Positions 8,126 to 10,240 of a DNA stretch of 64,000 nucleotides are shown here, piece by piece. How positions within the stretch are numbered: position 1 is the stretch's first letter; each line of letters starts with the position of its first letter. The DNA comes from Levilactobacillus suantsaii. Lineage in GTDB: Bacteria; Bacillota; Bacilli; Lactobacillales; Lactobacillaceae. The notes under the pieces were generated by a model. That model was not told the DNA's origin. It was given only the letters and a program-made list of their open reading frames with translations, and searched no databases. A program made the position numbers and the translations under genes. Where the stretch lies: assembly GCF_004115745.1 (NCBI RefSeq), contig NZ_QXIL01000011.1, forward strand, positions 1 through 64,000, given 5' to 3'.

Positions 8126-9370
8126 ATGGTTATGAGAATAAGAGAAAAGTGGATTCAAGTGGGCTTACTAGCGGTAGTGGTAACGCTCTTGGCACTGTTG
8201 GGAATCAATCCAGCGACCAAGGCGCAAGCCAGCAGTACGCTTGCTGACGGTGAATACACCGTCCCAGCAACCTTCGTGAAAAGCACAGATACCAGTTCGA
8301 CATCAGCAGCTGCCCAGTATTTTGCGACTTCAGCAACCGTCACCGCTAAGAACGGGACGTATGATGTCACCTTACCCATCAAAGAATCGGGACAGCAGTA
8401 TATTAAAACTGTCACGGTCAATGATCAAGATGATAATGTCGTTAGTGGGACTAATTTGGTCTTTTCCGTGACCAGCACGGCCACGCAGATTCCGATTACG
8501 TTCACCCTCGATTTGTCGTCGGTCGGCATGGGAACCATGACGGAACCAGCCATTTTAGAGTTAGATTGGTCATCGGCCGAGTCAGTCTCTAATGACGATA
8601 GTTCCTCCTCATCTAGTAGTTCGTCATCGTCAAGTAGTAGTAGCTCCTCTTCATCCAGTAGTTCGTCTTCGAGCAGTAGTAGTTCTTCCTCGTCTAGTAG
8701 TACACCTGCGACCGCTGGCTCAACTACCAGTGACACCGCGACTAGTGAGGCCAATGCTGTTAGCACTAAATCAACGGATCCTACCGCTGGCTGGACCTAC
8801 CAAGTTTTAAAGGAGGATGGCAAGTCGGTTTCGGCGGCTAACCAGTTCTACACCCATACCGCCCAGGTGACTAAAGTTGGCGACCATTACCAGGTTAAGT
8901 TGACCGTGAAATACGCTAAGAATTCGGGGATGACCCAAAAGGGCTTTACGCCATTGACCGTCAACGGTGAAAAGGTCCAAAACGTAACGTACGGCACGAG
9001 CGGCAAATATTACACGAATACTTATACTTTCAACGTACCGTCATTGAAGACGTTGAAGCACTTACTTAAGGGGACCCTGCACGTCACGGTACCGACTGTA
9101 GGCATTGACGAAACCTTTACAGTTCAATTCAAGTTCAGTCACAATGGGTCAGCTGCAACGGGGACCAGCGCGGCGAATAAGACCGCAAGTGGTAGTCAAG
9201 CCGACCAAGCTAGTGCCAGTGACACCGATCCAACGGCCACTACGACCGGAAGTACCGCTGCTGATACGGGCACGTTACCACAAACTCGTGATCACGTGGC
9301 CTTTGGTGCCATCGCGTTTGGTATCGTTGGGTTGATTAGCAGTGTCATCTTTTGGAAGCGGGGGATTTAA
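8126..9370 (+). CDS. cell-wall protein with two NEAT domains and an LPQTx sorting signal
   Basis: This 414-aa protein has a signal peptide (about 1-35, ending TKAQA). NEAT domain 1 spans about 38-150, a poly-Ser linker of about 40 residues follows, and NEAT domain 2 spans about 220-338. The C-terminus has LPQTRD, a hydrophobic segment and a KRG tail, close to the LPQTxE sortase signal of lactobacilli. NEAT domains bind or relay haem. Domain 1 keeps the S-x4-Y loop (SAAAQY) but has lost the YxxxY ligand motif. Domain 2 has YxxxY (YTNTY) but Phe in the first loop. ATG chosen because GGAGG lies 8 nt upstream. The stop is 1 nt before the next gene's ATG. Confidence 0.88.
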   Translation: MVMRIREKWIQVGLLAVVVTLLALLGINPATKAQASSTLADGEYTVPATFVKSTDTSSTSAAAQYFATSATVTAKNGTYDVTLPIKESGQQYIKTVTVNDQDDNVVSGTNLVFSVTSTATQIPITFTLDLSSVGMGTMTEPAILELDWSSAESVSNDDSSSSSSSSSSSSSSSSSSSSSSSSSSSSSSSSSSTPATAGSTTSDTATSEANAVSTKSTDPTAGWTYQVLKEDGKSVSAANQFYTHTAQVTKVGDHYQVKLTVKYAKNSGMTQKGFTPLTVNGEKVQNVTYGTSGKYYTNTYTFNVPSLKTLKHLLKGTLHVTVPTVGIDETFTVQFKFSHNGSAATGTSAANKTASGSQADQASASDTDPTATTTGSTAADTGTLPQTRDHVAFGAIAFGIVGLISSVIFWKRGI

Positions 9371-9371
9371 G

Positions 9372-9929
9372 ATGAAAGCAAAATGGCTCTTAGCGGCGGC
9401 GATTGTCGCTCTGAGTACCTTGGGCCTAGCCACGACCGCGCAAGCTAAGTCGGTGACCTATTCGGCATTGACTTACGGCACGAATAAGACCTCGATGGCC
9501 AGCAAGTACTTTGTTCGACCAGCGAAGGTCACGGTCAAAAACGGCAAGTACTATGTGACGATGCGGTTAAAGACGGCTAACGCATTAGGGAAGTACCCAG
9601 TTAAAGTCTTAAAAGCTAACGGGCAGACCCCACAGAACCTCAAAAAGGTGCATCAATCGGGGAGTTACAATTTATACTACTCGTTCACCGCAACGGCTAG
9701 CCAAATGAAAAATAAGATTACGGCAAAGCTGGCCATCAACGTTTTGCACGTATACAAAGCCAAGCACAACATTTCGTTTAAATTCAAGCAATCGCAATTA
9801 CCCAGTTTGAAGAAGCAGAAGCATACCAGCCAAGCCGCTGTCGCAACTGCGACAACTAGTAGTAGCTCCGCAAAAAAAGCACAAGCACTGCTGCCCGCCA
9901 TTCCCAACCCGCTTCTAGCAGCAGTGTAG
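9372..9929 (+). CDS. NEAT domain protein, short (zero-frame) product
   Basis: This 185-aa reading has a signal peptide (about 1-26, TTAQA-K) and one NEAT domain (about 28-145). Both haem motifs are intact: SMASKY (S-x4-Y) and YNLYY (YxxxY), as in IsdA-type haem binders. Translation in this frame stops shortly after an A7 run, giving a secreted protein without an anchor. The -1 frame continues into a Ser-rich stalk and membrane segment. The gene is translationally coupled to the upstream NEAT gene (GGGGGA site, 1-nt gap). The long product may be the functional form, by frameshifting or by tract-length change. Confidence 0.8.
   Translation: MKAKWLLAAAIVALSTLGLATTAQAKSVTYSALTYGTNKTSMASKYFVRPAKVTVKNGKYYVTMRLKTANALGKYPVKVLKANGQTPQNLKKVHQSGSYNLYYSFTATASQMKNKITAKLAINVLHVYKAKHNISFKFKQSQLPSLKKQKHTSQAAVATATTSSSSAKKAQALLPAIPNPLLAAV
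9872..9927 (+). promoter_or_regulatory. candidate programmed -1 frameshift signal
   Basis: The zero frame reads gcA-AAA-AAA, a perfect A_AAA_AAA slippery heptamer (9872-9878). Seven bases later begins a stem (9886-9894 with 9918-9926, C plus ACTGCTGC pairing with GCAGCAGT plus G). The zero-frame TAG (9927-9929) lies right behind the stem. Heptamer, spacer and stem fit the known layout of bacterial -1 frameshift sites. Confidence 0.55.
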
Positions 9930-10240
9930 CATCATCGAAAGCGCAAAAGACGCCGACCACTGCGGCGTCCCACAAAGCCGCAAGCTCGACTTCCAGTAAA
10001 AAGCCGGCATCGTCTTCTAGCTCAAAGCCGAGCCAAAGTTCGAGTTCGGCCGATCAGGTCGCGGCGGCCCAGTCTAGTAGTCCATCCAAGCATGTGACCC
10101 ACAAGACACAGGACCTCAAGGCCCAATCGGCCGCACCTCAATCTGGGATGAAATGGCTCTTAAGCGGTGCCATTGTCCTGGTCTTGATCCTTATCGGTGG
10201 GGCGACTTGGATTGCCCGGCGGCACGCGCCGAAACATTAA
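9878..10240 (+). other. -1 frame extension of the NEAT protein: Ser-rich stalk and membrane anchor
   Basis: Entering the -1 frame at the A7 run gives an open frame of 120 codons. It encodes a Ser/Ala/Lys-rich stalk and then a transmembrane segment (WLLSGAIVLVLILIGGATW) with a basic tail (ARRHAPKH). Joined to the first 169 residues, it makes a 289-aa membrane-anchored haem-binding protein. The unbroken frame and intact anchor argue that this part is still under selection. Confidence 0.75.

Follow-up and report, generated by a model that had tools for sequence, protein, structure and literature searches.

Does the frame break within the NEAT-protein gene that starts at position 9372 of the Levilactobacillus suantsaii window (the whole 64,000-nucleotide stretch of DNA that was analysed) mark a damaged gene, or a point at which one gene is given two alternative C-termini? 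All features of this gene lie on the + strand. Its zero frame (9372-9929, 185 codons, presumed to give the released form) encodes a predicted signal peptide of about 25 residues, recognised by eye (residues 1-25, 9372-9446, MKAKWLLAAAIVALSTLGLATTAQA), and a NEAT domain (residues 26-139, 9447-9788; PF05031, E 3.3e-12). The frame then reads GCA AAA AAA GCA, which places a slippery heptamer A_AAA_AAA at 9872-9878, followed by a 7-nt spacer (9879-9885) and a putative stimulatory stem of 9 bp with a 23-nt loop (5′ arm 9886-9894, 3′ arm 9918-9926), directly after which the zero frame ends at TAG (9927-9929). The −1 frame extension (9878-10240, stop TAA at 10238-10240) is open for 120 codons and encodes a Ser/Ala/Thr stalk, a hydrophobic, presumably membrane-spanning stretch located by eye (WLLSGAIVLVLILIGGATWI, 10154-10213), which is the counterpart of the C-terminal anchor in continuous-frame homologues, and a basic tail at the very C-terminus of the 289-aa fused product. 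The original prediction, of a programmed −1 frameshift deciding between a secreted and a membrane-anchored protein, had described this layout exactly to the base, and the product sizes of 185 and 289 aa predicted from the sequence are those it had given.

With one genome searched per species, the split gene was found in eight species of food lactobacilli, in 4 of 35 Levilactobacillus and 4 of 21 Lactiplantibacillus genomes. A close NEAT relative is present in 30 of the 35 Levilactobacillus genomes. In four of these the frame is split (the source genome, L. zymae (G005), L. acidifarinae (G014) and G013), L. zymae and L. acidifarinae being the nearest named holders of the window gene; in the other 26 a single continuous frame of 257-286 aa runs through to an anchor end such as HWGGLIGGIVAIVVLVGGGSWWYFGRH, the counterpart of which in L. 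zymae, KWLLGGGIVGVIVLVSGVSWFARRH, is encoded at the end of the −1 frame. The gene occurs in split form in all four Lactiplantibacillus genomes that have it, those named in the genome scan being L. mudanjiangensis, L. dongliensis and L. songbeiensis. Wider searches at the limits used gave a match in 33/395 genomes of the order and 120/397 of the family, two overlapping sets each drawn from a larger group, and a plasmid search returned only distant NEAT genes (9 of 72,556 records, 9/9 under 60% identity). The fetched loci amounted to 141 distinct genes after removal of duplicates; 12 with a profile score below 50 bits were dropped, leaving 129 homologues, i.e. 8 split genes and 121 others.

In a tree of these 129 NEAT stretches the eight split genes group together in a single clade (support 100/99), which is itself nested among anchored genes with a continuous frame from a different genus of the family. 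The four Levilactobacillus split genes fall inside the Lactiplantibacillus ones, with mixed support on the inner branches (96/62, 99/76). The simplest reading of this topology would be that the split arose once and the gene was passed once from one genus to the other, so that counts over the eight genes, which share one origin, are not counts of independent events. Homologues with an intact frame and neither heptamer nor stem, which the original prediction had named as evidence against itself, do exist, but they lie outside the split clade, and within it 8/8 genes keep both heptamer and stem.

The slippery site is uniform across this clade. In all eight genes the run consists of seven A, neither more nor fewer, and keeps its phase; the next base is G, and the stem begins after a 7-nt spacer. 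A heptamer of the X_XXY_YYZ type in zero-frame phase is thus present as A_AAA_AAA in every case; the alternative of eight A and one continuous frame is found in none of them. The residue before the Lys pair is Ala in five genes and Thr, Leu or Pro in the others, and its codon ends in A in all eight. Given the residues and the codon use of each gene, the heptamer would arise with a probability of 0.006-0.14 in any one gene; multiplied over six lineages, whose independence is only approximate, this gives about 1e-9. Synonymous divergence of the NEAT part, compared in 8 of the 28 possible species pairs, is at least 0.91 (saturated in two) in seven of the eight pairs, and 0.21 between L. dongliensis and L. 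songbeiensis; the shared signal therefore does not reflect recent copying, except in this last pair. The stretches of the source genome that were looked at contain two tRNA-Lys genes with anticodon CTT and one with TTT, and AAG having a tRNA of its own is in keeping with AAA rather than AAG at the slippery codons; for the other seven genomes, tRNA-Lys information consists of the count of an 11-base pattern only. Among the 121 other homologues, used as a control, 52 have in-phase A_AAA_AAN heptamers, 76 in total, of which a single one is followed at offset 7 by a stem scoring at least 18, close to the background predicted from stalk positions (224/13,866); the split genes score 18-25. The G013 gene contains one more heptamer, at its start, whose stem scores 10.

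Structures that stimulate −1 frameshifting generally start 5-8 nt downstream of the slippery site, according to the portion of PMC4066793 consulted, and the stem starts 7 nt downstream in all eight split genes. Its arms pair at 10, 10, 10, 10, 9, 9, 8 and 8 of 10 positions, with an internal mismatch in L. dongliensis and L. songbeiensis (8/10 pairs each) and a mismatch at pair 2 in G704. Compensatory changes are seen at three pairs: pair 4 is T-A in seven genes and G-C in L. mudanjiangensis, where the change in the 3′ arm replaces Ser by Arg in the −1 frame; at pair 5, three genes have G-C and five A-T; and at pair 8, five genes have G-C, two A-T and one G-T. When the 3′ arms were re-dealt among species, the observed pairing was reached in 24 of 40320 arrangements, and in 4 of 720 when the two near-copies were left out. 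Recoding the genes synonymously, with the −1 peptide held fixed, gave an equal stem at offset 7 in 0.16% of recodings of the window gene and p values of 0.00005-0.017 in each of the eight genes at this offset, which had been picked after it had been seen; with the offset free between 3 and 11, p values were 0.003-0.026. The signal of the minimum-free-energy test on its own is weak. Against synonymous recodings, folding energy falls below 5% in two of eight genes (G013, 18/2000; L. mudanjiangensis, 74/2000), with 253/2000 recodings folding as well in the window gene and 873/2000 in L. zymae. Against permuted codons it does so in four of eight, and the rank of the stem window among the windows of its own gene ranges from 7th of 269 to 43rd of 250. 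In our opinion this weakness arises because Thr (ACT) and Ser (AGT/AGC) codons naturally pair with each other.

The −1 frame evolves as coding sequence. Between L. zymae and L. acidifarinae, 97 codons of this frame show 44.0 synonymous and 24.0 nonsynonymous differences, a dN/dS of 0.12 similar to that of the NEAT part (0.10), with values of 2.73 and 4.36 in the other two frames, which contain stops. Between L. dongliensis and L. songbeiensis the −1 frame gives 0.14, against 1.76 and 1.85 in the remaining two. Pairs at greater distance, six in all and with poor stalk alignments, give 0.13, 0.18, 0.33, 0.63, 0.27 and 0.27 in the −1 frame and 0.86-3.59 in the others. The ratios of the two close pairs show purifying selection on the −1 frame, which argues that these species make the extension as protein and that selection acts on it as such.

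Taken with the phase of the heptamer, a structure 7 nt downstream gives the site the layout of −1 ribosomal frameshifting. That the two C-termini of this gene are set by programmed −1 ribosomal frameshifting is the best explanation of these data and, in our judgement, a highly probable one. Most ribosomes would read GCA AAA AAA straight through and stop 7-17 codons later, depending on the species, to give a secreted single-NEAT protein devoid of an anchor. A fraction would be delayed by the stem, slip back one base on A_AAA_AAA and add the Ser/Thr/Ala stalk, the membrane-spanning stretch and the basic tail, thereby producing an anchored receptor. The secreted and anchored destinations of the two products are predicted from their sequences, and we infer that the slipping machine is the ribosome rather than RNA polymerase. 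The original prediction had reached the same reading, which now finds support in a heptamer, phase, spacer and stem kept in 8/8 species of the clade, in compensatory changes in the stem and in the coding evolution of the −1 frame.

The alternative that retains most weight concerns the purpose of the site rather than the machine, and overlaps with slippage by either ribosome or polymerase. An ancestral disruption of the frame may have been fixed, slippage then restoring the anchored protein, with the short product as mere waste. The single split clade within continuous-frame homologues is what such a history would leave, and selection on the −1 frame acts to maintain the anchor. Changes in the length of homopolymer runs are, however, among the commonest of mutations, and a run change fusing the two frames is seen in none of the eight species despite dS values of about 0.9 or more in seven of the eight pairs; run and stem have been kept instead. 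We regard this origin as possible but unlikely.

The main mechanistic rival, transcriptional slippage, would yield the same two proteins, RNA polymerase stuttering on the A7 run and producing mRNAs of altered run length in which the frames are fused. Slippage of this kind works on A/T runs in bacteria, and extra A residues acquired in this way decide between soluble and transmembrane forms of the Ebola virus glycoprotein (both from the part of PMC5009743 consulted), an analogy of layout only, as that case differs in being viral and in relying on polymerase slippage. The efficient bacterial case in the same portion of that source has a run of 9, whereas the run here is 7 in 8/8 genes, and the Roseiflexus element it describes has its helping hairpin 5′ of a shorter mixed run, whereas the conserved hairpin here lies 3′, at a ribosomal distance. 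The split genes thus fall short of a run of about 9, and no common fold was seen by eye in the 50 nt upstream of the run. Polymerase slippage as the source of the two proteins accordingly appears improbable.

A contingency locus, in which changes in run length would flip the anchored form on and off between cells, is still less credible: the homopolymer does lie in a surface-protein gene, but seven A is short, all eight genomes (one per species) are in the same state, and phase variation requires no stem. A frame split at a homopolymer is a classic sequencing error, yet eight genomes agree on it and the −1 frame has a dN/dS of 0.12 and 0.14 in the close pairs, so that an error or a pseudogene is practically excluded. 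Re-initiation at a separate downstream gene, for which the zero-frame stop does lie inside the −1 frame, can be discounted just as firmly, since the first ATG, GTG or TTG of that frame comes at codon index 44 or later in 8/8 genes (72 in the window) and its product would have neither signal peptide nor NEAT domain.

Programmed −1 ribosomal frameshifting as proposed here would be a machine of a known kind put, as far as we have seen, to a new use. In E. coli dnaX, a chromosomal gene, an A-rich heptamer and a downstream stem give rise to two products, tau and gamma, that share their N-terminus; the split gene resembles dnaX in its chromosomal setting, heptamer and downstream stem, and would likewise give two products with a common N-terminus. 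The shifted product of dnaX is the short one, whereas that of the split gene would be the long, anchored one. Also, dnaX has an upstream Shine-Dalgarno-like stimulator, and no such element is consistent among the split genes: a Shine-Dalgarno-like tetramer lies 12-13 nt upstream in six of eight, perhaps by chance, and is absent in the window gene. In the frameshift cassettes of IS elements the shifted product is the longer one. Cassettes of the IS3 and IS911 type combine an A_AAA_AAN heptamer with a stem-loop or pseudoknot (PMC4066793, in part), and resemble the split gene in heptamer, downstream structure and longer shifted product; they differ in that no transposase is involved here but a cellular gene for a surface protein.

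Few non-mobile bacterial genes have a conserved programmed −1 frameshift, dnaX and copA being the usual examples, and we know of none in which it controls membrane anchoring. Our search of the literature, most subscription journals being outside it, found neither a frameshift in a NEAT gene nor a bacterial frameshift deciding anchoring. Both dnaX and copA are named as programmed-frameshift genes in the section of PMC13178939 consulted, and the main text of the GeneTack survey (PMC3711429) contains none of the words 'NEAT', 'heme', 'secreted' or 'anchor'. According to the same source, 611 of 4302 predicted programmed-frameshift genes in that survey were annotated as pseudogenes, a warning that genes such as the one described here may be annotated as broken.

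The likely ligand of both products is suggested by the shared domain. It matches the NEAT profile PF05031 with 47.4 bits (cut-off 32.8), and the IsdC equivalog TIGR03656 with 42.6 bits, far below the cut-off of 155.85. A profile of the clade gives sequence matches to the solved chains 4h8p, 4h8q, 3sik and 3sz6, which we take to be IsdX-type, and to the IsdC entries 2k78 and 2o6p. The structure model is mediocre (mean pLDDT 71.6, pTM 0.58), and with it Foldseek returned no match below 1e-3, the top rows being mostly Ig-like folds. Haem-binding NEAT domains carry the motifs SxxxxY and YxxxY. S41xxxxY46, Y128 and H132 are invariant in 24 aligned sequences, Y128 and H132 aligning with the two Tyr of the YxxxY motif of 3sik, the second of which is His here. 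This makes binding of haem likely. The split gene thus has its NEAT domain in common with haem proteins of the IsdC/IsdX type, and differs from them in a YxxxH rather than YxxxY motif and in a C-terminus apparently set by frameshifting.

Directly upstream of the window gene (8126-9370, + strand) lies a gene for a surface protein with two NEAT stretches (PF05031, E 1.6e-21) and, as judged by eye, an LPQTR-like sorting signal. This signal reads LPQTR and not LPxTG, and the protein contains 34 consecutive Ser residues starting at residue 159. A two-NEAT gene also directly precedes the split gene in L. zymae, L. mudanjiangensis and G704 (loci L064, L203 and L205); in G013 the upstream gene encodes instead one NEAT stretch and a Big_6 domain. 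In the continuous-frame genome G001, the NEAT gene precedes an Isd-like importer set composed of PF01497, FecCD and ABC-ATPase genes. The PF01497 binding lipoprotein is found in 21 of the 35 Levilactobacillus genomes, namely in 21/26 with the continuous gene, 0/4 with the split gene and 0/5 with neither, and by coordinates it lies within about 1.2 kb of the continuous NEAT gene in 21/21 cases; the one beside the continuous NEAT gene at G002:C9:34011-34689 matches in two pieces. It is absent in seven of the eight genomes with a split gene, one of the four split Lactiplantibacillus genomes having a PF01497 gene, on another contig. The link between split gene and missing lipoprotein is not strict, as five continuous-frame genomes also do without it and the relatedness of the genomes weakens the statistics. 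Cytochrome bd was found in 13/13 genomes tested.

A released haem scavenger and an anchored receiver might be supplied in a set ratio by a single mRNA, with no need for a second gene or for proteolysis. We consider it reasonably likely that frameshifting sets the ratio of released to membrane-held haem capture in two genera between which the gene was transferred, possibly offsetting the lack of an Isd-type importer, and that this ratio could follow lysyl-tRNA supply or growth state. If so, the gene is relevant to the capture of haem by respiring lactobacilli that lack the lipoprotein of the usual importer.

Further irregular frames were noted among the 121 other homologues, four of which lack an anchor in their zero frame. 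L126 ends immediately after the NEAT domain, and the frame of L196 is broken inside it. In L160 (G563) and L134 (G675), each from a single genome, the anchor is encoded in a different frame downstream of A-rich stretches, which could reflect slippage, decay or error. L126 belongs to a genome (G602) with two NEAT copies about 2 kb apart (L126, L127), the first of which is the one that ends at stops directly after the domain. The continuous gene L005 (G012) has A7 in phase within its stalk, with a stem score at offset 7 below 14. One continuous-frame gene that lies close to the split clade, L070 (G373), carries A_AAA_AAA in phase, at residue index 146 of the matched stretch. A stem scoring 22 begins 6-7 nt downstream, and a shift into the −1 frame would meet a stop after one codon; this may be the reverse, dnaX-like layout, with frameshifting producing the soluble form, or, as one of 76 heptamers, may be due to chance.
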